A stretch of DNA of 23,104 nt from a virus. The notes beneath the pieces are model-generated. The model was not told the DNA's origin. It saw nothing but the letters and a program-made list of their open reading frames with translations, and did not search any database. The first letter of the stretch is position 1, and every line of letters starts with the position of its first letter. Made by a program: the position numbers and the translations under genes. Shown piece after piece: positions 1 to 18,734 of the stretch. The stretch is from positions 1 to 23,104 of IMG/VR virus record IMGVR_UViG_3300009414_000080; one strand, 5' to 3'.

Positions 1-2231
1 ACATTTAGGCGACGCTGTGACCGCCAATCTGATATATGATTAATGAACTCATCGGCAGTATCGTCATCATAAATAAAGTCAGAGGTAAAGCCGCCACGTC
101 GTGTCTGGAAATTAAATTTGTCCCCCAATGAGATTTCCGTTTTATAGCGCGTCTTCGACTGTGTCATTGCTCCGCTCACATTCGGACCGAGCGTATAGGT
201 TTTATCTACGCTGCCAGTCATCCCGTCCGCATTTCCATTATTAGAAGTTCCTGGCGGGTTTGTATAGGGACGCCCAACCTCGACCAATTCCAGTTGAGTT
301 TCCGAAAGGACCGTATACACCTCATAAACTTTATCGCCGCTTATATAGCAATAGTCGCCCTGCATCCAGCTATAAAGCTGACTGTATTCCCGCGCCTTCA
401 CGCCATCCGTTTGAAATGTTGCAGAGGAATCCGTCAATATGCCGAATGGGTAATTATTGTCAATGTCCATCTCTATATCATCCAGCGTCCCCGTCCCCGT
501 GACTCTATAGCGCGAGGTTGCGATTTTCATTTTGTTATATTCCCCAGTTGCGCGGTCCAGGGCGTAGCGGAAAACAATTTCATTAATCAATTCGCGAATG
601 TTTGTGCGCGACAGTTTGGCGTCAAACTCCCATTGATTCGGGTCCGCGCCGGGATTTTTTACGAGGATATTATCACGATTAAAGAAGTGTGTCGGCACCG
701 TTGTTTTATCCTGTGCCGCGCAATTCCATTTCCCTTCCGAATCTTTAAAAATGTGCAGCCCTGCCTGGAAGGCAAAACCGTTTAAAAACTCTATCTCAAC
801 GGGCTGGTCCATCACAAAGGCAAATTTCCAAGCCGTGCGCGCCGCCGCTGCGGTGTCAAAAGAGGCCAGGTCAATTTTGCTGGTAGGCATATTTAAAAGG
901 TCTTTACCGCGATAAATAGCCTCCAGTTGATGGACGGGATTTTCCAATACCGCGCCACTGGAAGTAATCACCGCGCCGTCTGCCATATTGCCCGTCAGGT
1001 CCTCAAGCCCCTCCGCGTCTTGATATATTGGCAGGCTTGCCAGGTCCTTACTCTCCTGATCGTCAAAGCGTAAATCCAGATAAACCTCGTAAAGATTCTT
1101 AAACCCGGACGCAATTTCCAGCTCTACGCTTACATTTTCAAAATCCCATTTAGTCGCAAAGTAAGTCGCGATCTGAGAGGTGAGATCAATGGTAAAATCA
1201 GTGACCAACGTGCTGGTATCGTCCTGCACGGATGTCCCGCTGGCTATCGTCGTAGTTCCATGTTTAATTATATAGCTGAATGTCCCATTCGCTTTGATCT
1301 CTTTAATCACGAGGGATAAACTTGTCAATGTCCCCAGTTGTCCCCCAGTTCCCCCGAAATTTAAATCAAGATGCACCCCGGTATTCAGAGTCGTCCCCCA
1401 CGTACTTTGACGATTGAATACGGCTTGAGGCGATGGGTGCGTATTGGACGCCTTTGGCCTCGTCGGGGATAGGAGCATCTGCCGCGTGACGTCTGAAATC
1501 GTAGCCTGATGTCCCGACTGTGCAACCTGTAGACATTCGGCCCATTTGCGCGCCGAGGGATAATATTGATAGAGGCCCGAATAGGCATTATTGCGCGCAC
1601 CTGAGGTATATTTCTGTAGGAATTTATCAGTATTCACACAGGGCGCTATAAATGTAGGATCTCCGCTCAAATCATTGGGCGCTTTATCAAATTTGCCAAA
1701 AGGCACCGGCACGACTTTCCCAATCGTATCAAAAGGCGCGCCCACGTAATCAGTCAGATTCACGAAATGAGCCGGGATGCTGCGGTAGTCCTTATCGGAG
1801 CCGTCAATTAATTCCAGCGTCCACGTTCGCTCAGTGTAAGGGTAGTTTTCAATGACGTATTGCCCCAACGGTATCCGGTCCGCGAACTCCTCCGAGCCGT
1901 TGAGGAATAGCACGTAAAAACGCGCGTCATCATTTTCCAGGAAATAACTTTCGGCTAATGAGGTCGCCTTCTCCTCATTGCGTAAAACAACCCGCGCTGA
2001 GGATACCGAAGTCAGCCCACCGCCACGCCGTATCTTCTGCCAGCCGATTTGCAACCCGCCAGGAGAAAGGTCATCAGCGTACGTCTTGCCATCTATAGTA
2101 TATTTTCGGGAGCCGTAATATTTAGTAGTAGGATCAGCAGCAGGTGCATCCGCGTCAATCTCAACCAGCCAGACGATTTGTGTCGCATCGGCATCCTTGA
2201 GGCCGGTAGCCCTGGAGGTCAGGGTTTTCAC
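1..2231 (-). CDS. Tail hub / tail tip protein, 3' end beyond window
   Basis: An uninterrupted frame of 743 codons runs from a GTG at 2231 to the left edge with no stop, so the protein is incomplete. The GTG overlaps the TGA of the upstream gene (GTGA), and an AAGGA lies 9 bases before it, which decides this start. The N-terminal 200 residues have a beta-rich look: a VWLVEID segment, a GLTSVSSARVVLRNE segment, then PLGQYVIENYPYTERTWTLE and KVVPVPFGKF. This succession (an axis or surface description, then a pre-filled 'P-hh-G' strand) is what I associate with N-terminal regions of siphovirus tail hub/tip proteins. The position, second after the tape measure, fits a baseplate hub that closes the distal end of the tail. 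No catalytic or receptor-binding motif is recognised. It could instead be a long minor tail protein with a fibre-like C-terminus outside the window. Confidence 0.6.
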   Translation of the reverse strand, partial: MKTLTSRATGLKDADATQIVWLVEIDADAPAADPTTKYYGSRKYTIDGKTYADDLSPGGLQIGWQKIRRGGGLTSVSSARVVLRNEEKATSLAESYFLENDDARFYVLFLNGSEEFADRIPLGQYVIENYPYTERTWTLELIDGSDKDYRSIPAHFVNLTDYVGAPFDTIGKVVPVPFGKFDKAPNDLSGDPTFIAPCVNTDKFLQKYTSGARNNAYSGLYQYYPSARKWAECLQVAQSGHQATISDVTRQMLLSPTRPKASNTHPSPQAVFNRQSTWGTTLNTGVHLDLNFGGTGGQLGTLTSLSLVIKEIKANGTFSYIIKHGTTTIASGTSVQDDTSTLVTDFTIDLTSQIATYFATKWDFENVSVELEIASGFKNLYEVYLDLRFDDQESKDLASLPIYQDAEGLEDLTGNMADGAVITSSGAVLENPVHQLEAIYRGKDLLNMPTSKIDLASFDTAAAARTAWKFAFVMDQPVEIEFLNGFAFQAGLHIFKDSEGKWNCAAQDKTTVPTHFFNRDNILVKNPGADPNQWEFDAKLSRTNIRELINEIVFRYALDRATGEYNKMKIATSRYRVTGTGTLDDIEMDIDNNYPFGILTDSSATFQTDGVKAREYSQLYSWMQGDYCYISGDKVYEVYTVLSETQLELVEVGRPYTNPPGTSNNGNADGMTGSVDKTYTLGPNVSGAMTQSKTRYKTEISLGDKFNFQTRRGGFTSDFIYDDDTADEFINHISDWRSQRRLN

Positions 2232-2623
2232 GCGCTCATATCCTTGGAGATTCGGATATCAATATCCCACCGATTGCCGCGCTTGGATCTGGCCCGCTCC
2301 ATGCCGCTGAGGTAGTGCATATTAGTATGCGCGGCCTCGTGCGGGTCGGTGTACGTGAAGGCGGTGGCGTTATAGCTGACCGTGGTTTCAAAAAAGGTTT
2401 TCATGGAGGTATAATTAGCATTAGACATATCACGGAAATGCAGCACCATATTCTGATGTGCCGCGCTGCCATCTCCCAGGTCCACCGTCTTAAAGCCACC
2501 GCCCATTGTGCGACCCGTAAGGAATGGATACGAGCGTCCCGGCTCCTCCGGGTAGGCTGGAGCGCGGATTGTTATAGCTGCCGGTGATCCCGATGGCGCT
2601 GTGAAAATTACCGTATTGGCCAT
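2228..2623 (-). CDS. Small minor tail protein after the tape measure (131 aa)
   Basis: The start is ATG 2623, 3 bp after the tape-measure stop, with GGAG about 8 bases upstream in the last codons of that gene. The product is soluble, without signal peptide or membrane segment, and rich in aromatic residues and beta-prone stretches (TVIFTAPSG, TVSYNATAFTYTDP). The central segment GGGFKTVDLGDGSA followed by a conserved-looking MSNANYTSMKTFFETTV and a C-terminal RWDIDIRISKDM resembles small distal-tail or minor-tail proteins that sit between tape measure and hub genes in siphoviruses. Family membership is not established from sequence alone. The stop overlaps the next gene's GTG, implying translational coupling. 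The likely role is structural, at the tail tip. Confidence 0.6.
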   Translation of the reverse strand: MANTVIFTAPSGSPAAITIRAPAYPEEPGRSYPFLTGRTMGGGFKTVDLGDGSAAHQNMVLHFRDMSNANYTSMKTFFETTVSYNATAFTYTDPHEAAHTNMHYLSGMERARSKRGNRWDIDIRISKDMSA

Positions 2624-2626
2624 TAA

Positions 2627-5600
2627 TTAGCTCCCAAACAGTACGTTCCTATTTTGCAGTTCTGTTTCAAGCCACGTCCCCATCTGCTCTTTAAAATCTC
2701 CCTTCAGCGTAAACAGATCTCCCACCTCTAACGTTGTTAGCGGGATGGCATCCCTGAGGCCAAAGGGGTCAGGATCTGTTGTATCATCGTAGATAGAAAT
2801 AAACTGCGAACCGAATGCAGTCGCAACCTCGTCCTGTATGAAGGCTTGCCATTTTTCACCTTCAGCCGCGTCCGTGAAGGTCAGGAAATGCTCTGGCCCG
2901 AGCGCGACTTTAGGAATGCCCCTACCTATGCCAAATTGGTCCGTGGCTGCGACACTGAAGTCCATTGCATCAGTCACGTTTTCTTGTATATACGACTGCC
3001 ATGTCGCCGCCGTCGAGAGGTTGCTAAAAAACGTAAATTTCTCTGTAGCACTGAAGGCCATAAAATGCTCAGGCCCGAGCGCGACTTTAGGAATGCCGCC
3101 GCCAATGTTGAAAACGTCAACGCCCCCTCCGAAATTCATTGCCTCGGTCACGTTGCCCTGAAAGTAGCTTAGCCATGTCGCGGACATTGTTGGGCTGCTA
3201 TTCTCTGTCAGTGACTCTGTTGCACTGAAGAATATAAAATCCTGCGGCCTCAGTGCGATAATAGGCATCCGGCCCCTGATGTTAAAGATGTCGTCCATAG
3301 CCCCAGACGGGAGCTGATTGCCCACCTGTGAAGCAATCCACGGTCCCCAGGTGTTGTCGGCCTCGGGGAACCCTATGACGTGTTCTGGGCCAAACAGGAA
3401 TTTAGCCACGCCTGATAGTATAGTGCTGACCTGATCCGACAGGCCCGTGACTAAACCAGAATCTATTTCGCTCTGCCAAAATAGCTCATTGGCTGCCGAA
3501 TTGGACATCCGCAAAAAAGTGTCCGGCCTTACTATGTACTTGTTTCTACTTGTGATGGCGTTAAATATTCTCGCCGCTTGAGTTGTCAAGCCGGTAGTAA
3601 TACCACTGCCCACCATGTCCCGGTAAAAACTACTGAAACGGGAAGCGGGCGCAATCTTTAACATTGTTAACGGCTGTATGGTATAGCCCAAAAAGTTAGA
3701 AATTGCCGCGTTTATCCCAGTCCATAAGCCGTTATAAACCCAGGAGCCAATACTCTTCTCATTATAGACAGCCATGCCACTTTCGGCGGTGGCATAATTG
3801 ACCAAATGGGCAGGTCCCGGCGTATATATACCCGCATCTTTCCCCGAAGATGCCGTTGCAGACAGAGCCAAAAATTGGGCCGCCACCGCAGTCATTATGC
3901 CATCAGTCAGCCAACCACCAGCAAGGCCAGCCGCTAAATGTGCGGGCATCCCCTCTACTGCTTCGTCAAAATTCACAAGTCTATTAGCGGCTGGCCCCTG
4001 TGGCGTTAGCGTCGCAATGTGGCCCGCTATAGTAGTCATTATATTGCCGAGGATTATCGCCTCAGTGAGGTTCGCGGTATAATGGGCATTCATGTTTAAA
4101 TGCTCAAAACTCACCAGTCTATCAGGTCCCGGCGTATATATACCCGCATCTTTCCCCGAAGATGCCGTTGCAGATAGTGAATTAAAGTGGCTTGACACGG
4201 TATCCAGAAAGCCGCTGAGGAGCCAGGAGGAAAGGATCTTCTGGGCATACCAGCTTTCCATAATTTCCGCATTTGGCATACCTACGAAATGCTGCGGCAG
4301 CAGGGTGTATGCGCCAGCAAATTCATCCCCGGTAAATACGCCCGATATGGAATCTGAAAAACCGTTTAAAAGCCACGTTTCGAGGACGTTATTCTCGTAC
4401 CAACTTTGCATGATTCCCGCAGTGGGCAACCCTACCAAATCCCCGGCTTTTAATGTATGCAAAATCGTCGAAGCGCTGTCCTCCGAGGTGACTATGGTCG
4501 GATTGAAAATAGTCCTCACTAAATCAGATAAGCCAGTCGCATTTATGTTTGTTTCTAAATCATCCCAGAGGCGCAAAAATGCCTCACTATCAGGGATTCC
4601 GATGATATTGGAGGCCGACAACCCAAAAGGCGGTCCCCAAAAGTCCGCTTCATCCAAACGGGTTAAGTCCAGTATATCAGAGCCAGATCCGAAACTATGC
4701 GGCGTAATATCCACCCGGTCCTGTAGGGATATAGGCAAATTTGCCAGATTATCCAGATTGAGGATCTCGTCCCAACTCTCCACAACGTGCGGGGAAACCA
4801 CTACGTCAACCTCTGCTGACACGGCCTGTCCAGTCTCGCCGTCCTCTCCGCCATTACCTGGGGGTAGTTGTTGGGCTCCATCCACTACGGCGGCTCCTGC
4901 GGGCCGTAGGATGGCAGCCTCCTCCTCCGCTTGCAGCACTTTTATCAACCGGCCCAAATTCTCCAGAATTGCGACGGCTTCAAACGGAGATGCTGTGCTT
5001 AATTGCTCTTGGGCTTGACTGCGAAACGCCATTTCCTCGGCGTCAAATCGCATCCGAACAGCGCGGCGGGCTGGATCTTCCATTGTACTAAGAAAGTCTT
5101 GATGAAATTCCGCATTTTCCAGCAACAAGTCCCGCAATATATTCCGTTGTTGCAATGAAATGTTGACCCCTTCCTCCAGGGTAAAGGTCAACCCTTCAAA
5201 GTCCCACGACGCGACAATGTTCTCAAAGGATTTCATTAAAAGCGCTTCCCTACGAGCAGGGCTTATATCTTGGCCTGTGCGTATCTCTTCTTCCCTTAGG
5301 TTGAGCCTAAACGTATCAGATGCCCCGCCTATTGATTGGGCCTGACCGCTAAGCATAGAGGCGTTAATCAGGTCAACCAGTTCCTGTAAGGGGCCAAGAT
5401 TTAAGGCTCCTTCACTTAAAAGCGGAACCCCCAATCTATCAACAACGTCCCCGGTTAAAGTGGCAAACATGGAGGTGACATCATCAAGGCTTGTAGATGA
5501 CATCACAGCAAATCTATCTAAAAAGATGTTAATAGCTTTGTGCATCTCTGCAGACGTATCCGCGCCCTCTTCATTTGCTTTCAGTATCGCAGCAATGGCG

Positions 5601-7513
5601 GATTCAACGCTTATACCCCCTAAAGTCGAGGTGCCGCTAAGCCCTAAAACATCATGCGGTTTAAACTCTGCAAACTCTCTTTCTAAGAGAACCCCCGCTT
5701 GGGCCGAAAATGAGCTTCCCACCGAAGGATTCTCCACTGCGCTGATCATCTTCGTAAAGTCAGCCTCCGCAGCTACTATCGCTTTAAGCCTTTCCTCCGA
5801 AAAGCCCATAAGGGCATCTGCGGCACGGGTCAGCGCTTCAGTCGTGCTTAATGTTTGGTCCTCTACCGCCCGTAAAGCTGAAACGTAGTTTTGTGTTGCA
5901 TGTGTTGCGCGCGGAATTATTTTATCCAAAAACTCAAAAGCAGTAATCGCCACGTTCATTGCAGCCAGCGCCGCAGATGCTTTGGTAGCGGCACTGGCCC
6001 CTGTCATCCGTGCGGCGCTTATTTTTTCTACTGCGGAAACTATCTCATTCCCAAAGTTAGCCATTTCAGGGTTAAACCTTGCAATGACCGACAATACATC
6101 CTGTATCGCGTCTTTGCTTTCCCGAATCCCTTGCGTGAAGTCCCGGAAGCTATCCCATGCCGCCCGGTCAGCGTCGGCCCTTTTTTTCAATTCCGCAGCC
6201 TCATCGTCTGAGTGCCGCTTCATATCAAAGTAGCGTTTCCTGTTATCCGCTTGCTGCTGCTTCAGCAGGTCATCTCCAAGGTCTTTTTGAGCTTCCAGAA
6301 TTTGCCGCCCAATCTCATCAGCATCCTGCGCCTCTAACACATCCTCATTTATGGCCCGGATGGCTTCAACGCGCAAGACCCCCAGTAATTTTTCCTCGGC
6401 TAAAATATCCTTGGCCGCCTGTTCAGCTACTTCATGTCGCGCTAAAATCTCCGCATCTCCCGGCAGGAAATTTCTATCTGGATTTTTAAGGACGCCCGAC
6501 CCCGGAAACTGCTTCGGTCCGGTAAAAAAGGGAGCCGCCATACTTTCATCCACTGCCGTCATGTCCACGACTTCTCGCTTTTCTCGGTTGTAAGAATCTG
6601 CCGCCCGCACTAGTGTTCCGCCTATGCCGCCCCCTCCCGGCATAACCGCGCCCAAGGCGTCCAGCCAAGTGAAAGAAAAGTCAGACCGGCTTAACGTGGC
6701 TATAATATCCTCCAGCCCTCCTGCCAGATCCGCGAGAGCAGAGATTGCGCCCTCAAAGGCAAAGGTATTGCCGATAGTATCCTGTAAATTGCGCCAATTA
6801 GCAGCCAAGCGTCCCGCAGCATCGGCGGCCTCATTGACAACCTCACCCATTGCTGCCGCTTTGATTGCTAACTGCTCCTTGACGAGAATGGCGAAGGCTT
6901 CCCGCTTTTCAAGATCCGATAGGCTTTTAACTGTGCGATTTAATGACACCGCATAGTTTTTATAAGCCGTTTCAACACGAGCCACGATTCCAAGCTCGTC
7001 AAGTAGCTCTTGCTCCTGCTTATTTATTGCCGAGATAACGCGCTCAATATCTACTGAGGCCACACGCCCCAGGCCAGTAGATACGGTTCGGATGTTTTTT
7101 ATTAAACTACCCATATTGCCCGACAGGTTTTTAATGCCGGACGATAGGGCGATATTAGCCGTGACCATCATTTGGAACCGGGAAAGCGTCCCCGCTGCCG
7201 CGTCGTCAATCTCCTTGAGTAATTGAGTGGGATTTGCCCCTGACTTCTGGGCCATAGACATAAAGCCCTTTCGCGCCGCATTGGTGGCCGAGGCAAACTG
7301 GTCCATTTGGTATGCCGCCATGCCTATCTGCCGCACAGTCTCTATCCCAATAGCAACACCAAAGGCTGCGCCCAAAGCCTGAAATGCGCGGCCCGCATTC
7401 TTTGCGGCCTTGTCTACGCGGTCCAGATCGCGCGCCGCTTGCTTGGTGCCACGGTCAAGATCCTTGCCGTCCCATCGCGCCGTGACTTTAATATCGGCAG
7501 TAGTGGCTACCAC
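2627..7513 (-). CDS. Tail tape measure protein with C-terminal repeat region (1628 aa)
   Basis: This is the longest gene and follows the tail chaperones, the fixed place of the tape measure in siphoviruses. The start is GTG 7513, overlapping the preceding TAG by one base, with GGGGA about 8 bases upstream. Residues 1-270 are helical, with a hydrophobic stretch near 47-58 (ALGAAFGVAIGI) and a region like other tape measures (QMDQFASATNAARKGF, ANWRNLQDTIGNTF). Residues about 370-460 are highly charged and likely coiled coil. From about residue 960 to the end the protein changes into degenerate 45-60-residue units that begin with P-[EQDA]-[HDR]-hydrophobic and carry a central Trp, which is not typical. 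The family sets tail length at roughly 0.15 nm per residue; applied to the whole chain that implies a tail near 250 nm, less if the repeats do not span the tube. No lysozyme or peptidase motif was seen. Confidence 0.88.
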   Translation of the reverse strand: MVATTADIKVTARWDGKDLDRGTKQAARDLDRVDKAAKNAGRAFQALGAAFGVAIGIETVRQIGMAAYQMDQFASATNAARKGFMSMAQKSGANPTQLLKEIDDAAAGTLSRFQMMVTANIALSSGIKNLSGNMGSLIKNIRTVSTGLGRVASVDIERVISAINKQEQELLDELGIVARVETAYKNYAVSLNRTVKSLSDLEKREAFAILVKEQLAIKAAAMGEVVNEAADAAGRLAANWRNLQDTIGNTFAFEGAISALADLAGGLEDIIATLSRSDFSFTWLDALGAVMPGGGGIGGTLVRAADSYNREKREVVDMTAVDESMAAPFFTGPKQFPGSGVLKNPDRNFLPGDAEILARHEVAEQAAKDILAEEKLLGVLRVEAIRAINEDVLEAQDADEIGRQILEAQKDLGDDLLKQQQADNRKRYFDMKRHSDDEAAELKKRADADRAAWDSFRDFTQGIRESKDAIQDVLSVIARFNPEMANFGNEIVSAVEKISAARMTGASAATKASAALAAMNVAITAFEFLDKIIPRATHATQNYVSALRAVEDQTLSTTEALTRAADALMGFSEERLKAIVAAEADFTKMISAVENPSVGSSFSAQAGVLLEREFAEFKPHDVLGLSGTSTLGGISVESAIAAILKANEEGADTSAEMHKAINIFLDRFAVMSSTSLDDVTSMFATLTGDVVDRLGVPLLSEGALNLGPLQELVDLINASMLSGQAQSIGGASDTFRLNLREEEIRTGQDISPARREALLMKSFENIVASWDFEGLTFTLEEGVNISLQQRNILRDLLLENAEFHQDFLSTMEDPARRAVRMRFDAEEMAFRSQAQEQLSTASPFEAVAILENLGRLIKVLQAEEEAAILRPAGAAVVDGAQQLPPGNGGEDGETGQAVSAEVDVVVSPHVVESWDEILNLDNLANLPISLQDRVDITPHSFGSGSDILDLTRLDEADFWGPPFGLSASNIIGIPDSEAFLRLWDDLETNINATGLSDLVRTIFNPTIVTSEDSASTILHTLKAGDLVGLPTAGIMQSWYENNVLETWLLNGFSDSISGVFTGDEFAGAYTLLPQHFVGMPNAEIMESWYAQKILSSWLLSGFLDTVSSHFNSLSATASSGKDAGIYTPGPDRLVSFEHLNMNAHYTANLTEAIILGNIMTTIAGHIATLTPQGPAANRLVNFDEAVEGMPAHLAAGLAGGWLTDGIMTAVAAQFLALSATASSGKDAGIYTPGPAHLVNYATAESGMAVYNEKSIGSWVYNGLWTGINAAISNFLGYTIQPLTMLKIAPASRFSSFYRDMVGSGITTGLTTQAARIFNAITSRNKYIVRPDTFLRMSNSAANELFWQSEIDSGLVTGLSDQVSTILSGVAKFLFGPEHVIGFPEADNTWGPWIASQVGNQLPSGAMDDIFNIRGRMPIIALRPQDFIFFSATESLTENSSPTMSATWLSYFQGNVTEAMNFGGGVDVFNIGGGIPKVALGPEHFMAFSATEKFTFFSNLSTAATWQSYIQENVTDAMDFSVAATDQFGIGRGIPKVALGPEHFLTFTDAAEGEKWQAFIQDEVATAFGSQFISIYDDTTDPDPFGLRDAIPLTTLEVGDLFTLKGDFKEQMGTWLETELQNRNVLFGS
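2895..3097 (-). repeat. 26-bp perfect direct repeat inside the tape measure gene
   Basis: Bases 2895-2920 and 3072-3097 are identical over 26 bp, 177 bp (59 codons) apart, encoding GIPKVALGPEH at about residues 1473 and 1532. These are adjacent units of the degenerate protein repeat, and the DNA identity points to recent duplication or selection on the motif. Confidence 0.93.
3811..4174 (-). repeat. 52-bp perfect direct repeat inside the tape measure gene
   Basis: Bases 3811-3862 and 4123-4174 are identical over 52 bp, 312 bp (exactly 104 codons) apart. On the minus strand both encode the same residues (ATASSGKDAGIYTPGP) at about positions 1114-1131 and 1218-1235. The reading frame is kept, so this is an internal duplication or gene-conversion tract within the protein repeat region. 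Confidence 0.95.
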
Positions 7514-7863
7514 TATATATTCCCCAGTTTTCTATTCGCCAATTCTTTTTCCCGCTGTAAATCCTCGCGCTTTTTCTCTCTCTGCCGGTGGGATTCCGAG
7601 TGGACGAATCGGATGGCAGCTTTCAATTTCGGCCTCGGTTCCTCACGCCATACGCCCAGGCCGATTTCCTGATCATAGAGAAATTCCTGCGCTTCCATGT
7701 AGAGTGGATCAATGTCCAATAGATCCAGAAACTCGTCCGAATCCAAAGGGCAGTCCTCGCACTCTACCGCTGCCAGAGTGTCGTCCATCCCGCACGCTTC
7801 GCCCGAACAGTCCGGCCAGTCGCCATCCCTCCGGTCTAAAGCGCGCTGGATGGACTCCCTTAG
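7513..7863 (-). CDS. Tail assembly chaperone, frameshift extension (GT-like T part)
   Basis: This frame has an ATG at 7788 (91 aa), but it is open without a stop back to and past 7863. A -1 shift at GGGAAAC (7869-7863) joins it exactly to the upstream chaperone frame. The fused product would run from 8219 to 7513 and have 235 residues: 119 from the first frame, 25 linking codons starting with CTA 7863-7861, then the 91. The T part is acidic at its start (ECEDCPLDSDEFLDLLDIDP) and very basic/charged at its end (SHRQREKKREDLQREKELA), likely helical. In lambda the equivalent GT protein bridges tape measure and tail tube during assembly and is absent from the virion. There is no convincing ribosome-binding site at ATG 7788, so I read this as an extension and not an independent gene. 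The stop TAG overlaps the tape-measure GTG. Confidence 0.75.
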   Translation of the reverse strand, partial: LRESIQRALDRRDGDWPDCSGEACGMDDTLAAVECEDCPLDSDEFLDLLDIDPLYMEAQEFLYDQEIGLGVWREEPRPKLKAAIRFVHSESHRQREKKREDLQREKELANRKLGNI

Positions 7864-7869
7864 TTTCCC
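7823..7869 (-). promoter_or_regulatory. Programmed -1 ribosomal frameshift site with downstream stem
   Basis: On the minus-strand mRNA the last codons of the chaperone frame read GAG GGA AAC TAA, so a canonical X XXY YYZ heptamer, G GGA AAC, sits directly before the stop (DNA 7869-7863). Lambda G/GT uses GGGAAAG. Nine bases after the heptamer comes a 6-bp stem, CCATCC (7853-7848) pairing with GGATGG (7828-7823). A purine-rich GAGGACGAGGA tract precedes the heptamer and could act as a Shine-Dalgarno-like stimulator. The shift leads into the open -1 frame. Confidence 0.8.
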
Positions 7870-8219
7870 TCCTCGTCCTCAGAGAGTGTGTTTTTCTCCT
7901 CAAAATGCAGAGCAAAAGACACCTTCCAGTTCGCCGGTATTTTCTGCCTCCAGTTTTCTACGTCTGGGGATAGAGATTGCCCAGTTTCGTCCTCTACATT
8001 TTCAACTCGGATACAAGTGGTATTGAAAAAGCTGACCCTTGCTTCAAAGGATTTATCTTGCACTCCTCGCGCCCCGCGCCCTTGTTTTACTCGGCCCGAC
8101 AGGAGCTTTTTGATGGAGTCCTGTAATTCGGTTGAGCCGTAACCTGGGAAAAATGCATGGACTTCCTCGTCGCCGATGAGAATTGAAACCTTAACCTCTT
8201 CCGTCAAACGTACTGGCAT
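7860..8219 (-). CDS. Tail assembly chaperone (G-like, 119 aa)
   Basis: The start is ATG 8219 with GGAG 8 bases before it. The product is small and soluble, with N-terminal beta-prone residues (VKVSILIGDEEVHAFFPGYG), a helical basic middle (LQDSIKKLLSGRVKQGRGARG) and an acidic end (EEKNTLSEDEEGN). I do not recognise the family by sequence. The assignment rests on position directly before the tape measure, size, and the slippery heptamer at its last codons that extends a fraction of product into the next frame. In lambda-like phages the short form G and the rarer fusion GT are both needed, in a fixed ratio, to load tail tube subunits onto the tape measure. Confidence 0.72.
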   Translation of the reverse strand: MPVRLTEEVKVSILIGDEEVHAFFPGYGSTELQDSIKKLLSGRVKQGRGARGVQDKSFEARVSFFNTTCIRVENVEDETGQSLSPDVENWRQKIPANWKVSFALHFEEKNTLSEDEEGN

Positions 8220-8529: not shown

Positions 8530-9648
8530 TTAGGCCATTATAGCAGTCCTGTCCGTGCTATCTGCAAACACGTCAAAATATACGGACTTGTGGGTTGACC
8601 CAGAGTCTTCCAAAACTTGATAAACCAGCCGATCAACCAGATTGCCCCCTGAATCAGTTACCTGCACACTCTGCAATTTAATTTGCGGAAAAATCAAATT
8701 GAAGCCTTCATAGTGGGCAGCATCAACCAAAGCGCCCTGCACAATCATTTGAAAGGCGCAGGTGTATTGCCCCTTCAGCAATGCGGTGAAATCATCGTCT
8801 GCGTGATCCAGCTCCAGCGTTAGGGTTTGAGTGCGACCGCCCCTATTGTTATCCGATAAAACCTTACCGCCGCCGATGCGATAATTGTCGTCCGGCGCGA
8901 TATTATTGGAGAAGTCCCAAGTAGCTGACCTTAATCTTGACGCGATGTCGTGCGCGGTTGCACCGTTAGCCGCAATATCTGGTGCGCCGGGGGCGAGGTT
9001 TTGACTCCGATTGCCAGCCGTTTCTATTGTGCCGGTCAATGCGTTGATGTTATCCGCAGGAGGATCACCAGACTCAATAAGCAAATACGCTCCAGCCGAG
9101 GCCGCATTTAGTTGTGTTTCTGCGTGCTCCGTTTGCGCTGAGCCTGCGGCGGCACGAGTGCCAGATGCGATAATGTTAGTATTTAGCGATACAAACCGAT
9201 TCGCCCCCTGCTGAACAGAAAGGGAAAAACTATTAATCATCCCGCCCGTATATTTGTATTTTAGACTGGTGTCGAGCCAAAATTCAAAAGTGAAAGAATT
9301 AGTTGACCCGTCATTGTCTACCGGAGTGCAGGCGTATTGATAAATCTTTGTTGCTCCCGACGCGGCAGCCTGAGCTACAGCGCCCAATCCATAGGCACCC
9401 ACCCAGAGCAAAGGCGTCGGCTTTACCCTATTAATTCCAACATCTAAACTGACCGACTGGGCGAATACCTCCTGATCCGTAGCCTCCTCCTTGCCGCCGG
9501 TCAGGTCTTGGTCATTGATGACCTGAACATTTTCCTGCGGTATGGAGCCGATATTAACATTAATCAATTCATCCAGCGCGGCAGCCGAATCGTAGGTAGA
9601 TTCCTTTGCTGCGAGGGATACGTTTAGTTGAGTTTTGCGGCTTAACAT
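8530..9648 (-). CDS. Major tail tube protein (372 aa)
   Basis: The start is ATG 9648 with an ideal CGGAGG 6 bases upstream, matching high expression. The N-terminus (MLSRKTQLNVSLAAKEST) is the kind seen in long tail tube proteins that begin by naming beta strands and then a GSIPQENVQV segment. It contains alternating polar beta strands throughout (SFTFEFWLDTSLKYKYTGGMINSFSLSV, RTQTLTLELDHADDDFTALLKGQYTCAFQMIVQGA), a pattern typical of tube subunits with duplicated domains: a first half about 1-180 and a second about 240-372, joined by an Ala/Asn-rich linker. The position after the tail terminator and before the chaperones agrees. At 372 residues it is longer than lambda V (246), consistent with two related halves or an added domain. 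Confidence 0.75.
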   Translation of the reverse strand: MLSRKTQLNVSLAAKESTYDSAAALDELINVNIGSIPQENVQVINDQDLTGGKEEATDQEVFAQSVSLDVGINRVKPTPLLWVGAYGLGAVAQAAASGATKIYQYACTPVDNDGSTNSFTFEFWLDTSLKYKYTGGMINSFSLSVQQGANRFVSLNTNIIASGTRAAAGSAQTEHAETQLNAASAGAYLLIESGDPPADNINALTGTIETAGNRSQNLAPGAPDIAANGATAHDIASRLRSATWDFSNNIAPDDNYRIGGGKVLSDNNRGGRTQTLTLELDHADDDFTALLKGQYTCAFQMIVQGALVDAAHYEGFNLIFPQIKLQSVQVTDSGGNLVDRLVYQVLEDSGSTHKSVYFDVFADSTDRTAIMA

Positions 9649-9649
9649 C

Positions 9650-10171
9650 TTAATCCTCCGTTATAGTAAAATCTATTGAGATATTGAAAGTCAAAACGGC
9701 AACCCCTCGCAGCCCTTGGGTTTCCTCCAGCGCCGCGCTGCCAATTGCCGTTCCTGCCTTCTCGACTACTACCGAGCCGGAAACCGCGTCTGACAAGTCA
9801 GCCGTGACGGCTGATAGTTGCTTTGCGGCCAAATGCTGCTGCTGCATTACGCGCTCTATCCTGGCCGCGTAATATTTCACCGTCTTTTTAACATTGATAA
9901 GACGGCCCCCGGTGACACATACCAAAACAAGGGCCATATAAGTCGCCCTGTCCTGGCCCGTTGAAGCCTCCGCTTGTCCGCTCAAGTCCACTGTCACGGC
10001 TACCGCCGGAAGTTCATTCTCATTATAATCCCCCGCGTCCTCTCGCAGCTCCTGTTCCCATTTTTTAATCGCCAGCGCGCCGCCAGTGCCGAGCCTTGCG
10101 TCTGCCTGGAGGGATTCGATTACATGCTCGGCGATTACGTTATAGGTATCGTCGCTATTAAAGGCGCTCAT
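9650..10171 (-). CDS. Tail terminator / tail completion protein (173 aa)
   Basis: ATG 10171 overlaps the preceding TGA (ATGA). The order connector, gp10-like protein, this gene, then tail tube is where siphoviruses encode the tail terminator (lambda gpU type) that caps the tube and joins it to the head. The middle has LPAVAVTVDLSGQAEAS and YMALVLVCVTGG, then a helix (TVKYYAARIERVMQQQHLAAK), and a final strand VLTFNISIDFTIT. This alternation of a beta sheet with a helix fits that small family. Assignment is mainly by position and shape. The end lies 1 bp before the tail tube start. Confidence 0.6.
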   Translation of the reverse strand: MSAFNSDDTYNVIAEHVIESLQADARLGTGGALAIKKWEQELREDAGDYNENELPAVAVTVDLSGQAEASTGQDRATYMALVLVCVTGGRLINVKKTVKYYAARIERVMQQQHLAAKQLSAVTADLSDAVSGSVVVEKAGTAIGSAALEETQGLRGVAVLTFNISIDFTITED

Positions 10172-13768: not shown

Positions 13769-13804
13769 ATAAGCATGACACACACACACTATAAGGAGGA
13801 CAAA

Positions 13805-14026
13805 ATGGATTATAGAATCTCAGAAAAAACCTTTTCAATAATTGAAGAGGCACTCAGGAAAAGAATTATTGAGCTGGAGGAAAGAGTGGAATGCTTTGAA
13901 GAAAGATTTGACATGCCCTCTCTTAATAACGCGCGGCAAGAGCTAAAAGAAGCAAAAGCCGACTACGGGAACACCCTGGTCAGCTTGGCAAATCAAAAGT
14001 ATAACACTGGCAGCATTAAATACTAA
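13805..14026 (+). CDS. Unknown small helical protein (73 aa)
   Basis: ATG 13805 is chosen because AAGGAGG lies 5 bases upstream; the in-frame ATG at 13775 lies before the ribosome-binding site and would translate through it. The product is almost wholly alpha-helical and charged (IEEALRKRIIELEERVECFEERF, LNNARQELKEAKADYGNTL), probably a coiled coil, with no membrane segment. I do not recognise it. It is the first gene of the plus-strand cassette and has its own promoter. Confidence 0.6.
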   Translation: MDYRISEKTFSIIEEALRKRIIELEERVECFEERFDMPSLNNARQELKEAKADYGNTLVSLANQKYNTGSIKY

Positions 14027-14034
14027 TTAAACAC

Positions 14035-14063
14035 TTGCTTTTCTATATGGGATGGCATATATT
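14035..14063 (+). promoter_or_regulatory. Promoter 2 of the plus-strand cassette
   Basis: TTGCTT (14035-14040), 17 bases, TATATT (14058-14063), followed by ATAA. Over the 39-base promoter block (13737-13775 and 14032-14070) most positions match copy 1, including all of the -10 and its flanks. The start site would be near 14070. Confidence 0.65.
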
Positions 14064-14070
14064 ATAAAGA

Positions 14071-14095
14071 CGGCCCCAGGACGATCCTGGGGCCG
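14071..14095 (+). promoter_or_regulatory. 11-bp hairpin at the predicted 5' end of the DUF932 message
   Basis: CGGCCCCAGGA (14071-14081) pairs perfectly with TCCTGGGGCCG (14085-14095) around a 3-base loop. It begins about 7 bases after the -10 element, so it would form the very 5' end of the RNA, before the (AC)n leader. 5'-terminal stems are known to slow RNase E-dependent decay (ompA type). Confidence 0.6.
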
Positions 14096-14123
14096 CACAC
14101 ACACACACTATAAGGAGAAACTA

Positions 14124-14909
14124 ATGGTTAATATAATGGAAAGCACCGCACGGGGCCATAGGGCCGCACAATTTGAGGATCTGGGAAGTATGCCCGTTTT
14201 AACCGAGGCCAGCAGCACTTATACACCGCTGCCTCATCTGGACTTTGCCATGAATGTCCACCGCATCGGCGAAGAGATCCTCGGCCCCAAGGGCTTTAGC
14301 CTTAACGGCGCACAGTACACCGTTAGCGCCGATATGGGAAAACTTTACATGGCCCAAGCCTTTGATCATGACGACCGGGAGGATTTGAAGTTGATGGTGG
14401 CAGGCCGGAACAGCACGGATAAGTCCATGATGGCCGCGGTGGCTGTTGGCGCACAGGTTACTATCTGCACCAACGGTATTATAAGCGGGGAAATTTCGGT
14501 CATGCGGAAGCACACCGGGGACGTATTCCGCTACTTGGAGGATAATTTGATCCTCTCTTTTCACCGCGCGACGGCAGGCTGGAATGACCTGCAAGCGGAT
14601 ATTGAGAAGTTTAAGGAAACGCCCCTGGATGACCGCGAAGCCTATCGCATTATTGGCGAAATGTGGGGCGATAATATCCTACTCCCCAATCACCTCAACA
14701 AAGTGCGGAAGCACTGGCACGAGGACGACGACTTTGCCGACAAGTCTTTGTGGAGCCTGTACAACGCCGCCACAGAGGCTTTTAAGGGCCTGCCGCCCCA
14801 GAAGATCATGCAGTCGCACCTTGCACTTCACACCTTCGCACGGGAGCAGGTGACGCCTGAAACGCCTGAAACCGCCCACTTCAGCGTCGGCGAGGCGCTG
14901 AATAATTAA
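14124..14909 (+). CDS. DUF932 / phage-plasmid-like protein (261 aa)
   Basis: ATG 14124 is preceded by AAGGAG at 6 bases; the upstream in-frame ATG at 14052 is inside the promoter and is rejected. The middle contains AGRNSTDKSMMAAVAVGAQV followed by TICTNGIISGEI, matching the DUF932/TIGR03299 signature (R-N-S-x-D-K...G..V..C.N). The C-terminal part has SLWSLYNAATEAFKG, the family's late 'YNA.TE..K' segment. These proteins are widespread in phages and plasmids; their biochemical role is not settled, although they often lie near replication or recombination genes. Finding one inside a head operon is unusual. No membrane segment or signal peptide is seen. Confidence 0.8.
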   Translation: MVNIMESTARGHRAAQFEDLGSMPVLTEASSTYTPLPHLDFAMNVHRIGEEILGPKGFSLNGAQYTVSADMGKLYMAQAFDHDDREDLKLMVAGRNSTDKSMMAAVAVGAQVTICTNGIISGEISVMRKHTGDVFRYLEDNLILSFHRATAGWNDLQADIEKFKETPLDDREAYRIIGEMWGDNILLPNHLNKVRKHWHEDDDFADKSLWSLYNAATEAFKGLPPQKIMQSHLALHTFAREQVTPETPETAHFSVGEALNN

Positions 14910-14913
14910 AAAC

Positions 14914-14951
14914 CGGACACCCCCCCTGCCAACCGCGGGGGGGGATGTCCG
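14914..14951 (+). terminator. GC-rich hairpin between DUF932 gene and the next gene
   Basis: CGGACA (14914-14919) pairs with TGTCCG (14946-14951), and a run of seven Cs (14920-14926) pairs with Gs 14938-14944, with one bulged A. No T run follows (GAAAAGGAG). It probably attenuates or processes the transcript; the downstream start at 14967 has its own AAGGAG. Confidence 0.5.
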
Positions 14952-14966
14952 AAAAGGAGATCTAAA

Positions 14967-15362
14967 ATGGCAGACGACAAACTAAAAGCCGCCGCTACGC
15001 AGCTTTTTAACCTTGTCCACTCCTACGCCAACCCAAGCGGGGAGGAAGATGATTATGGCCGGTGGTATCCGATTAAAATGCTGCCCTGCTGTGAGAAAAT
15101 TGTACAGCCGGAAAGAGGAAACTTGTACTCATTTTTCCTCCACCAGCGTACAGTCAAACATGTTGCGATGGAATTCGGCGTATCGCCAGAAGCGTTGAGG
15201 AGGGAAGTGACTGAGCCGGATGGTGTATTCTTTAAAGCTGAAAGGAATTTAATGGCGGCCCATACAATAGAAAAGGTCAAAGAAAGTGTCAACTCTCGGC
15301 TTGAAGCGTCTGAATATATTGAAAAAATAAACACTATAAAGGAGGATAATGATGAGCAATAA
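14967..15362 (+). CDS. Unknown protein with possible helix-turn-helix (131 aa)
   Basis: ATG 14967 has AAGGAGA about 8 bases upstream. The segment YGRWYPIKMLPCCEKIVQPER, then a Phe/His-rich part (LYSFFLHQRT), and VKHVAMEFGVSPEALRREV resembles a helix-turn-helix (residues about 62-80). Two adjacent cysteines (PCC) and a later charged helix (KVKESVNSRLEASEYIEKIN) follow. I do not recognise the family. The gene overlaps the start of the next one by 11 bp, so the two are likely co-translated. Possible DNA-binding regulator, unproven. Confidence 0.55.
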   Translation: MADDKLKAAATQLFNLVHSYANPSGEEDDYGRWYPIKMLPCCEKIVQPERGNLYSFFLHQRTVKHVAMEFGVSPEALRREVTEPDGVFFKAERNLMAAHTIEKVKESVNSRLEASEYIEKINTIKEDNDEQ

Positions 15363-15694: not shown

Positions 15695-16138
15695 TCATTC
15701 GGCCTCATCGGCTATATTCTTAGCCGCTTTTATATACCTTTCCTTTAAACTGTCAAAATACTCAGCATCGCCCGCCCGGAAGTCTTGCCATTTCTGCCAG
15801 GATTTTAAAAGCTCTTTCCGGTCTAAAATCTGCTCTAAATGTAGCTGATACCCTTCTTTATTTATAAAGCGCCGGATATGCTCCTGGGGCGCTGTTATAG
15901 AATTGAATTTTATTACATGCCCTCGGCCATTATCAAAATAAATAGGCATCCAATAAAGCCAAAAATCAACGGCCATAATCTCTCCCTCAGAGTCGAGGTG
16001 TGGATTATAGCGCACAAGCTCGACGGCATCAAGCGCGTGCTTCCCGTTAGGGGGATCATTCCCCGGATATATAACGGACATAAAACTCGGCGCCTCTTTA
16101 AAGGGCTTTAAATGGCCCTCAATCTCAGTCAGCATCAT
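15695..16138 (-). CDS. Unknown 147-aa protein overlapping the MuF gene
   Basis: The ATG at 16138 (second ATG 16135) overlaps the last 14 bases of the MuF gene, and there is no clear ribosome-binding site, so it is likely translated by coupling. The product is soluble, somewhat acidic, with beta-prone and aromatic segments (EIMAVDFWLYWMPIYFDNGRGHVIKF) then helices (EHIRRFINKEGYQLHLEQILDRKELLKSWQKWQDF). I do not recognise it. Directly after a MuF protein with a possible enzyme domain, a small acidic gene is where an immunity protein would be expected; alternatively it is a head decoration or assembly factor. Neither is shown by sequence. Confidence 0.65.
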   Translation of the reverse strand: MMLTEIEGHLKPFKEAPSFMSVIYPGNDPPNGKHALDAVELVRYNPHLDSEGEIMAVDFWLYWMPIYFDNGRGHVIKFNSITAPQEHIRRFINKEGYQLHLEQILDRKELLKSWQKWQDFRAGDAEYFDSLKERYIKAAKNIADEAE

Positions 16139-18734
16139 CTGCCAGGGTCATCCATTTGTCTTTAGCCATTATCACATCTTCTATTTTTCGCCCATCAGGT
16201 AAAAAGTGAATATGGGCCTCTTTAAATTTACCAACTAACACCGCAACATTCGCCTCTTCTGCCAGGACAATAGCCCGCAGCTCTGTAAGTAAATCAAGCC
16301 CGTTCTTCAATACAAGCTCATTCTCGGGATGGGCGCTATAATCCATAAGGGCCTTATCATCTAAACGTAGGCGCTTTTCTTCATCGGGTACTGCGCCCCA
16401 TTTATCAAATTTAAAATGACGGGCATCCAAGCGCCTATAATTGCGGCGCTTAAAATATAGCCCCCCCCAAGTTGGGGCTATTGAGGGCCTACTCCTAAGA
16501 TAAGCATAAGACCCGCCCCCGCCCGCTATATCCTCCGCAGGCGACTCCGCGCGACTGCGCTTGATGCCACGACGGATTTTTTCACGCGAACTGACCACGC
16601 GCGCCGAGTTTTCCAATATGCCTTTTTGAAAAAAATCAATAATTTCTTTGTCTGATGATTCTTTCAAATTTGCAACCGAATGATATAAATTAAATCCTTT
16701 CGGAATATCATTGTCGTCTATATCAAACCGATATTGATGGCGATGGCCTGCGGTTTCAATGCCCTTTGAATCCACCCAAGAAGAAAAAGAAATATCAGTT
16801 TCCCCCTCCGGGTTATATGCCCTTAGGGTAGTTATGTCGTCCACGTCGAGCCGCCTTCCCCAGAACTGGCGCAACTCTAAAACCTGATCAGGAACAGGCC
16901 AGCCCTTAATCTTATCTAAAAGCGCATTATGCTCCGTGTCCGAGACATTGACAAGCATCCGCTGGTCTCGTATCTCCATTTCCACCTCTTGCCCGGTGGC
17001 ATTTCGGGCCATCCGCTTTAAATACGCCAGCTCAATATCAGCCGACGTTGACAGGCGCGCCGGAATGTCCATATCCTCAAGCCGCTTAAAAATATCGTCC
17101 GCCAAGTTCTGGGTCCACGGGCCATTCGCCTCAATTTCCATGCTGCCACGGTATGACAGAGGAGTTTTCACGCCATCCAAATCCGCCGGTCTGTACCGTA
17201 TTTTCATCCCGTCAGAAAATTTAATTTCATATTCCTTACCTTCTAGCTCTGGATCATTATAAAAATCCCCAGGCGTTTCATATTCGCCCGAAGCCTTCAG
17301 CTTACCGCCCTTTAATGTTTTCCTAATCGGCACTTGTATATCCTGCACTTTACTAGTCGGGCGGGCGCTTCCGGCCCCCCAAGAAAACCGAGTCTCTTTT
17401 TTAATCCAATCAACTATTTTTTGCTCTGATTCTTCAGCTATTTTCAAAGACGCAAAGGATCTTATTTTTTCGGGGCCAAGCAAGTCGTCGCTCATACTGG
17501 GGTCAAGATAATCATTGTACATGTGAAAAGTTAGATCTTCCACCGCATCTCCATCAAAGCGCACCGCGCGCCCTTGCGCCCCATAGTTTTCAATCTTTTT
17601 TAAAGTTTCCGCAAATTGTATGGCATCTGGAGCCGTAAGAGAAATTTTGGCCTCTTGCAGCTTGGCTACTTCAAGCGCCTGGGCTGCCTCCTGTGCCTTC
17701 TTAGCCTCCGCCGCGGCCTTTGCTGCCGCCTTTTCTTTAAGGGCTTTCCTGCTGGCAATCGCGGCCTTTGGGGCCGCCTTGGTCTTAGGTAGCGGCGTCT
17801 GCGCTTCCAGAACCTCCTCGGGGACATCTTTGAACCACTCAGCCCGCCCGCCTATTAGGACACTGCGGCATAGATGAAAAGGAGATAGGCGAGGCGGACG
17901 CCCGAGGTCGGAATTAGACCACTCAACCAGAGTCATCGGCTCACGCTCGGAGGCCCTGCGACAAATAGGCGTAGTGCGGGAATCGTGCGGATTGGAATTA
18001 CGATAGACGGCCTCGTCTCCCAAGACTTCCGCCGCCTTTGTTTCATGTGTGCGGTTGATGATCTTGGACGATTCGACCCGCGCTATGGCCTCGGCCCGCT
18101 GCTGGATGGAGCGGGTGATCATTTTGCCAGACTTTGACTTTATGACAAGCGGCTTTATGCGGCCCGATTCAATCAAGCGGCTCATCAGCGTATCCGCCCG
18201 CGGGTCCAGCTTATTCACAATAGGCAACTCTTCAAAAATACTATCCATCATCGTCTGGCGGAACCACTCAGTCACATCGTCGCCGACGACGTTCATTATT
18301 TTATAGGTATCATTATAGCCGGTTTTTAAAACGGCTTTCTCTGACATTGAAACCAAATCAAAAGTGCTTTTTAGCTGGTCGGAATCTAAAAACTTAACGT
18401 TGAGATTCGCCCGCGCTAAATCCCGGCCCGCCTTGTGCATTTTGGGGATTATATCGTCGGCCCACTGCTGGCCGGGACCGATTAGATACTCGTCCACCTC
18501 CCCCATTAAATCATTGACTATGGCCGAGGCCGCGTCAACATTGGCCGGGATGTTCTGCAACTGGTCGCCCTTTGTCAGCAGCGTTTTAAATGCCGATTCT
18601 TTTAATGCTAGTTTCTCCTCGGCAGAATTGAAAATAGCTTTTAAATCAAGCGCCGCCTGCCCGACTACCTCGTCCTCTATTTCGTCGCGGAGCCGGTGCA
18701 TTTTGCTGATCATTGCGGGTATACTAAGTGCCAT
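16125..18734 (-). CDS. MuF-like minor head protein with long C-terminal, ART-like extension (869 aa)
   Basis: ATG 18734 overlaps the portal TGA (TGATG); GGAG lies 9 bases upstream. Residues about 205-295 carry the head morphogenesis (Mu gpF-like) pattern: ARVESSKIINRTHETKA, then HDSRTTPICRR, and PPRLSPFHLCRSVLI, with Cys258, His287 and Cys289 as possible metal ligands. Residues 316-365 are an Ala/Lys coiled-coil linker. Residues 380-680 form an unrecognised beta-rich part (RAVRFDGDAVEDL; KIRYRPADLDGV; IPARLSTSADIELAYLKRM, a segment I have seen in other MuF tails). Residues 680-825 have NLYHSVANL, GGGGSYAYLR, GGLYFKRR and ENELVLKNGLDLL, which I read as an ADP-ribosyltransferase-like H-Y-E layout. 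The family's usual length is 250-500. MuF proteins lie inside the head and some carry toxin or enzyme tails (the 'polyvalent' and MuF-toxin literature). MuF call firm; ART call tentative. Confidence 0.82.
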   Translation of the reverse strand: MALSIPAMISKMHRLRDEIEDEVVGQAALDLKAIFNSAEEKLALKESAFKTLLTKGDQLQNIPANVDAASAIVNDLMGEVDEYLIGPGQQWADDIIPKMHKAGRDLARANLNVKFLDSDQLKSTFDLVSMSEKAVLKTGYNDTYKIMNVVGDDVTEWFRQTMMDSIFEELPIVNKLDPRADTLMSRLIESGRIKPLVIKSKSGKMITRSIQQRAEAIARVESSKIINRTHETKAAEVLGDEAVYRNSNPHDSRTTPICRRASEREPMTLVEWSNSDLGRPPRLSPFHLCRSVLIGGRAEWFKDVPEEVLEAQTPLPKTKAAPKAAIASRKALKEKAAAKAAAEAKKAQEAAQALEVAKLQEAKISLTAPDAIQFAETLKKIENYGAQGRAVRFDGDAVEDLTFHMYNDYLDPSMSDDLLGPEKIRSFASLKIAEESEQKIVDWIKKETRFSWGAGSARPTSKVQDIQVPIRKTLKGGKLKASGEYETPGDFYNDPELEGKEYEIKFSDGMKIRYRPADLDGVKTPLSYRGSMEIEANGPWTQNLADDIFKRLEDMDIPARLSTSADIELAYLKRMARNATGQEVEMEIRDQRMLVNVSDTEHNALLDKIKGWPVPDQVLELRQFWGRRLDVDDITTLRAYNPEGETDISFSSWVDSKGIETAGHRHQYRFDIDDNDIPKGFNLYHSVANLKESSDKEIIDFFQKGILENSARVVSSREKIRRGIKRSRAESPAEDIAGGGGSYAYLRSRPSIAPTWGGLYFKRRNYRRLDARHFKFDKWGAVPDEEKRLRLDDKALMDYSAHPENELVLKNGLDLLTELRAIVLAEEANVAVLVGKFKEAHIHFLPDGRKIEDVIMAKDKWMTLADDAD

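Follow-up and report, generated by a model that had tools for sequence, protein, structure and literature searches.

Repeats in tape measure proteins are usually read as the graduations of a ruler. Repeats of 11, 18 and around 40 residues have been reported (PMC5099701, PMC3271669), and in TP901-1 the deletion of repeats shortens the tail in proportion, with a slope of 0.153 nm per residue (PMC5099701). The tape measure of RcGTA is a trimer in which a 113-residue helix is followed by 83 residues made up of strands and loops and then by a C-terminal helix of 20 residues (PMC7296036); that of R4C is predicted to be alike and has been likened to the P22 needle (PMC10276861). The tail tip houses the C-terminus of the tape measure in JBD30 and lambda, and its extrusion on opening of the tip has been proposed for JBD30 (PMC11445458, PMC10721106). 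Channels through the host envelope have been ascribed to the tape measures of other phages (PMC11445458, PMC10276861). Here we describe, in a small group of uncultured phages, a repeat architecture that is real and, as far as the present searches and a partial review of the literature extend, apparently undescribed in this known kind of protein.

The stretch of DNA that was analysed (the window) is the 23,104-bp IMG/VR record IMGVR_UViG_3300009414_000080, from an uncultured phage. It holds a head-tail module, mostly on the minus strand, that runs from a methyltransferase, terminase subunits, portal, MuF-like protein, scaffold and P22-type major capsid protein to neck proteins, a major tail protein, chaperones, the tape measure, a 131-aa protein and a hub-like protein, where position, not library matches, is the basis for naming the neck, major tail, 131-aa and hub proteins. 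The MuF-like protein (16125-18734, minus strand) has 869 aa in the window versus 1700 aa in the four related contigs L010, L011, L012 and L013, and in these longer proteins a big extra stretch separates the conserved N- and C-terminal parts. The scaffold gene is separated from the MuF-like gene by inserted frames on the opposite strand (13775-15362, plus strand). The near-identical THTHYKE at the start of two of them suggests that a leader or ribosome-binding stretch is repeated.

The tape measure gene (2627..7513, minus strand) has a GTG start and encodes 1628 aa. It lies between the tail chaperones and the distal tail and hub genes, an order common to the related phages described below, and residues 95-244 match phrog_3779 (tail length tape measure protein) with an E value of 5.4e-8. 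Upstream, the chaperone pair (a 119-aa and a 91-aa frame; 7513..8219, minus strand) carries the -1 slippery heptamer GGGAAAC at 7863-7869 (minus strand), at the very end of the 119-aa frame, whose final Gly-Asn is kept in the relatives; the 91-aa frame is open across the heptamer, and the pair likely uses a -1 frameshift of the lambda G/GT type. Based on this position, the N-terminal match and the chaperone pair with its heptamer, the sequence identifies the 1628-aa protein as a tailed-phage tape measure. Comparing the whole protein with named phages by tblastn gave short N-terminal matches only, and a peptide-pattern scan of IMG/VR with the tape measure alone gave no match. The adjoining 131-aa protein (2228..2623, minus strand), distal-tail-protein-like by position, found no convincing match in the libraries and is 45-49% identical in the relatives with an intact copy. 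The hub-like protein (3..2231, minus strand; 743 aa in the window, truncated by the contig end) is 39-44% identical in all the array-carrying relatives.

Residues ~963-1628 of the tape measure (2630-4627, minus strand) consist of diverged tandem units of 45-59 residues. When self-BLAST was run with 60-residue windows across the protein, strong off-diagonal matches were nearly confined to residues ~960-1600, among them 1426-1485 with 1484-1544 (59% identity, E 4e-20), 1083-1136 with 1187-1240 (E 1e-15) and 994-1060 with 1051-1110 (E 5e-13). The C-terminal 678 residues gave a best self-match of 63.5 bits and 42 matches of at least 25 bits; in 40 shuffles of the same residues the maximum was 22.7 bits and no match reached 25. 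The internal repeats are significant and restricted to the C-terminal side, and no such units were found in the N-terminal 900 residues.

We placed 13 units by hand, each of 45-59 residues except for the last, which has 33, and scored every unit with an HMM trained on the others against 1,000 shuffles. Eight of the 13 scored above all shuffles: unit 2 (residues 1019-1069, 4307..4459; 25.5 bits), unit 3 (1070-1126, 4136..4306; 28.2 bits), unit 4 (1127-1171, 4001..4135; 23.3 bits), unit 5 (1172-1230, 3824..4000; 12.2 bits), unit 6 (1231-1280, 3674..3823; 17.3 bits), unit 8 (1329-1374, 3392..3529; 13.0 bits), unit 11 (1480-1538, 2900..3076; 20.5 bits) and unit 12 (1539-1595, 2729..2899; 14.1 bits), these and all further coordinates in the array being on the minus strand. 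Three more were exceeded or equalled by very few shuffles: unit 7 (1281-1328, 3530..3673; 8.9 bits, 1 in 1,000), which matches unit 8 by BLAST (E 5e-6), unit 9 (1375-1421, 3251..3391; 7.0 bits, 1 in 1,000), which matches units 10-12 (E 1e-5 to 6e-5), and unit 10 (1422-1479, 3077..3250; 7.3 bits, 4 in 1,000), which is the 59% identical partner of unit 11. The two end units, namely the degenerate unit 1 (963-1018, 4460..4627) and residues 1596-1628 (2630..2728), did not reach significance. These results support 11 units, and the 12-13 counted in the earlier note are a fair upper limit; within that limit, the unit size, the coordinates and the start motif P-[EQDA]-[HDR]-[FLV] given there are also correct.

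Most copies are old and diverged. Some are recent at the DNA level, as shown by 52 identical bases common to 3811-3862 and 4123-4174, at the ends of units 5 and 3. Duplication has been local, as seen in units 10 and 11 with their 59% identity, in the similarity of unit 2 to unit 3, and in a step of two units that joins units 3 and 5. A tblastn search of 50,697 phage records with the array returned no match other than two chance ones, and Pfam and PDB sequence searches gave nothing convincing.

Relatives were found in IMG/VR by capsid alignment and later by hub and chaperone alignments. Six further lineages have the same gene order: L009, L013 (with an identical tape measure in L090), L056, L093, L096 and L099. 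In each, the tape measure runs from a conserved block of the type FD.REMALRR.AQ... through a C-terminal array to a terminal strand-helix (KLSVADIVDLSELEGIV..RNR type). The block, which lies at residues ~821-880 in the window (4874..5053, minus strand) and is predicted to be helical, was recovered by alignments and HMM matches in 7/7 tape measures, so the kinship of these proteins reaches beyond the N-terminus. All seven distinct tape measures, the window included, carry an array after this block. The array of the window thus has the same position as in the relatives, between the block and a terminal strand-helix that was assigned by position and pattern (residues 1596-1628, TTLEVGDLFTLKGDFKEQMGTWLETELQNRN, with TTL before it). 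We regard TTLEVGDLFTLKGDFKEQMGTWLETELQNRN as the positional counterpart of KLSVADIVDLSELEGIV..RNR; it was significant neither as a thirteenth unit nor by HMM against the ends of the relatives.

The repeats of the relatives contain Trp and are shorter than the window units, at 34 residues in L056, ~38 in L009, 37 and 44 in L013, 37 and ~48 in L093, ~36 in L096 and ~41 in L099. In five of the six they share an element of 12 residues around W..[VI][VI].[LF], present in 9-20 copies that are mostly 17-25 residues apart. A PSSM of this element, trained on the relatives only with the window excluded, finds 16 copies in L009, 20 in L013, 19 in L093, 9 in L096 and 11 in L099; the 2 matches in L056 stand beside a 34-residue repeat that is its own variant. 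DNA tandem repeats of 111 and 114 nt in L093 and L009 show recent duplication. Copy number differs even between L093 and L099 (19 versus 11 motifs), whose hub proteins are ~79% identical and whose tape measures share 73% identity over residues 1-300 and 42% over the array.

The N-terminal side of these proteins is modular as well. Profile searches place a TMP_3 domain (PF20155) in L009 and L013 and a domain of the phrog_3779 type in the window and L056, and the genes beside both types are homologous (6700-7513, minus strand, in the window; L009, L013 and L056). By these profiles the differing domains beside homologous flanking genes are a modular swap, and the C-terminal module persists with different N-terminal domains. 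The motif was absent from the more distant phages that share capsid or portal (R5C, Pan1, SSP002 and the Leptospira plasmid pLiSL5) and from R4C, and hub and capsid alignment scans of genome contigs gave no prophage relatives. Some neighbouring genes of the relatives are themselves rearranged: L093 (797-1873) and L099 (1549-2577) carry two copies of a 173-aa neck or terminator-like protein joined into one frame, and L056 has two different major-tail-protein-like frames in tandem (2825-3901 and 4134-5357) and a homologue of the 131-aa gene split over two overlapping frames (9337-9707).

An HMM of the window units found no significant match in the relatives, and the link between the two therefore runs through the strand motif only. 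Scored with the relatives-only PSSM, the window gives 16.3 at residue 911, just before the units and within the range of the relatives' own copies, 8.2 at 941, 5.8 at 964 (the start of unit 1) and 6.6 at 1583. The first of these is the strand motif VESWDEILNLDN (residues 911-922, 4748..4783, minus strand), a good copy of the element, and the second a weaker one, FGSGSDILDLTR (residues 941-952, 4658..4693, minus strand). Across units 2-12 the mean score peaks, among 41 shifts, in the register predicted by the alignment (p 0.003 compared with N-terminal sites of matching hydrophobic pattern), at a value that is below zero and well under that of true copies, as the units are much degenerated. Units 10 and 11 are each preceded, 17 residues upstream, by another weak strand motif, at the spacing seen in the relatives. 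Register, flanking copies and position together give moderate grounds for homology of the window units to the relatives' element. A window unit looks like strand pairs of the relatives with an added, probably helical segment that carries Trp. The idea that the unit arose by amplification of the terminal strand-helix of the relatives was set aside, as HMMs gave it no support in either direction.

AlphaFold was used to model an array from a relative and units 10-13 of the window, from small alignments of 4-6 sequences that included a pseudo-alignment of repeats. Confidence in the arrays was low (pLDDT about 25-50) and insufficient for a fold search, so that the consecutive units suggested for modelling in the earlier note gave no confident fold and neither strand packing nor the helix was confirmed. 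The added Trp-bearing segment of the window units is drawn as a helix at this low confidence, and the pre-array block of L096 was modelled as two helices at pLDDT about 64-80. The helix that follows the strand had been described as amphipathic; this holds only weakly, since its mean hydrophobic moment of 0.20 is less than in the rest of the protein.

To weigh the ruler question we compared the seven related tape measures, which range from 995 to 1628 residues in total. The block starts at residue 637-872 (CV 0.10), whereas the array is 167-710 residues long (CV 0.51), and the two lengths are weakly correlated (r 0.52, n=7). A part read as helical, of fairly steady length, is followed by an array of probable strand type that varies more than four-fold. 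As array length varies more than the pre-array part, this indirect comparison suggests that the array is probably not the ruler itself, with some contribution to tail length possible in view of the weak correlation, and the length-variable ruler proposed in the earlier note is not favoured. The part before the array is itself steadier but not fixed, because the stretch from residue 300 to the block differs between L093 and L099 (564 and 490 residues, 27% identity). If the TP901-1 slope is applied, the predicted tail is ~118 nm when the pre-array part (~900 residues) alone counts and ~229 nm when all 1628 residues do. That the array nevertheless forms part of the ruler, each added unit lengthening the tail as the 11/18-residue repeats of TP901-1 do, would fit the proportional shortening in that phage and the spread of total length among the relatives. 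We consider it unlikely: the array lies directly against the terminal strand-helix, Pro and Trp are abundant in residues 881-1628 (4.8% and 2.3%) but not in the upstream part, and neither the pre-array part nor the array of the window is enriched for W, W/F or W/F/Y at lags 11 and 18 (the top W/F lag in the array is 59).

A doubtful but possible alternative is that the array consists of short linear motifs, mostly unfolded alone, that dock through the W..VI.L strand on a partner such as the tail chaperone during assembly or the lumen of the tube or hub. The short conserved element with its variable linkers, the lack of a predicted monomer fold and the co-occurrence with conserved chaperone, 131-aa and hub genes would suit such docking, although low AlphaFold confidence with 4-6 sequences is uninformative, trimeric beta structures may also look unfolded as monomers, and no partner site was identified. 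The array could instead be a neutral expansion, tolerated on the C-terminal side of the tape measure and without specific function, as rapid copy-number change and DNA-level duplications might suggest; that all seven lineages keep an array, and that the motif is kept between lineages with different repeat lengths, makes this quite improbable. Least of all do we expect membrane-active segments, with one helix per unit inserting into the host envelope at DNA ejection, as had been suggested before. Most units do have Trp-bearing segments, and the envelope channels ascribed to other tape measures offer a precedent, but the only hydrophobic stretch of membrane-spanning character is a borderline one in unit 4, the hydrophobic moment is low as noted above, the net charge is -48 over 728 residues, and the arrays of the relatives lack the added segment.

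The explanation we prefer, with a probability of roughly 0.45 and hence tentatively, is that the array is a C-terminal segment of variable copy number and partly beta structure, placed at the tail tip and separate from the ruler. The repeats, their place, the common strand element, the variation in copy number and the co-occurrence with the 131-aa and hub genes are observations. We infer a tip-proximal variable segment because the array occupies the place of the C-terminal part in RcGTA, R4C, JBD30 and lambda; its strand and helix content, a trimeric state and a role in ejection likewise follow by analogy. The tandem-repeat domain would have arisen, and would keep changing, as a Trp/aromatic strand element is duplicated locally, and in the window most elements would have gained an extra, probably helical segment to give units of 45-59 residues. 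The domain would lie between the helical ruler and the last strand-helix, which in other siphophages is located in the tail tip. The tape measure, a trimer in those relatives whose tails have been solved, may keep its ruler function in the ~880 pre-array residues, while the array may pack, partly as beta structure and at variable length, at the head-distal end beside the distal-tail and hub proteins. On opening of the tip it could leave the tail first and serve as a spacer or needle for crossing the host envelope; a domain released on DNA ejection, also raised in the earlier note, is compatible with published siphophage tape measures.

A more speculative extension, which we think improbable, is that copy number is tuned to the host envelope, so that the array would leave first as a trimeric needle built of repeats and set the reach of the conduit across the periplasm, the protein then having a measuring length for the tail and a second for the envelope. 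The array looks like a fast-evolving addition to the tape measure at its tip end. If it is not a ruler, the tail-length role of the protein is separated from its role at the tip and in ejection, and these phages supply natural variants for studying a poorly resolved C-terminal segment.

Among described systems, the 11/18-residue aromatic repeats of TP901-1 and p2 (Belcaid 2011, Mahony 2016) resemble the window in being tandem and aromatic and in their duplication and loss. They are internal and tied to tail length, whereas the repeats here are C-terminal, 45-59 residues long and free of 11/18 periodicity, and the element in the relatives is mostly spaced by 17-25 residues. The earlier view that units of this size are unlike those of tape measures has to be modified, as a ~40-residue repeat has been noted in p2 and the relatives have repeats of 34-48 residues. 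In T5, 80alpha, JBD30 and lambda the last residues of the tape measure are probably in the tail tip, as proposed for the window; the portions of the sources consulted present these C-termini as short coiled coils and describe no repeat array. Further counterparts are the uncultured IMG/VR relatives, which share gene order, block, array and terminal strand-helix and differ in lacking the added segment, in having 2-20 motif matches and, in two of them, in a TMP_3 N-terminal domain by Pfam. RcGTA (g11) and R4C, the latter with no sequence similarity seen and no motif match in its tape measure, each pass from a long helical part through strands and loops into a short helix at the C-terminus. The segment order of the window tape measure agrees with this helix-sheet-helix plan, the array itself being modelled below pLDDT 50. 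The sheet part of RcGTA has 83 residues compared with 167-710 for the arrays here, and the best reading of the array, by analogy, is an enlarged counterpart of the sheet part in tape measures of the helix-sheet-helix type.
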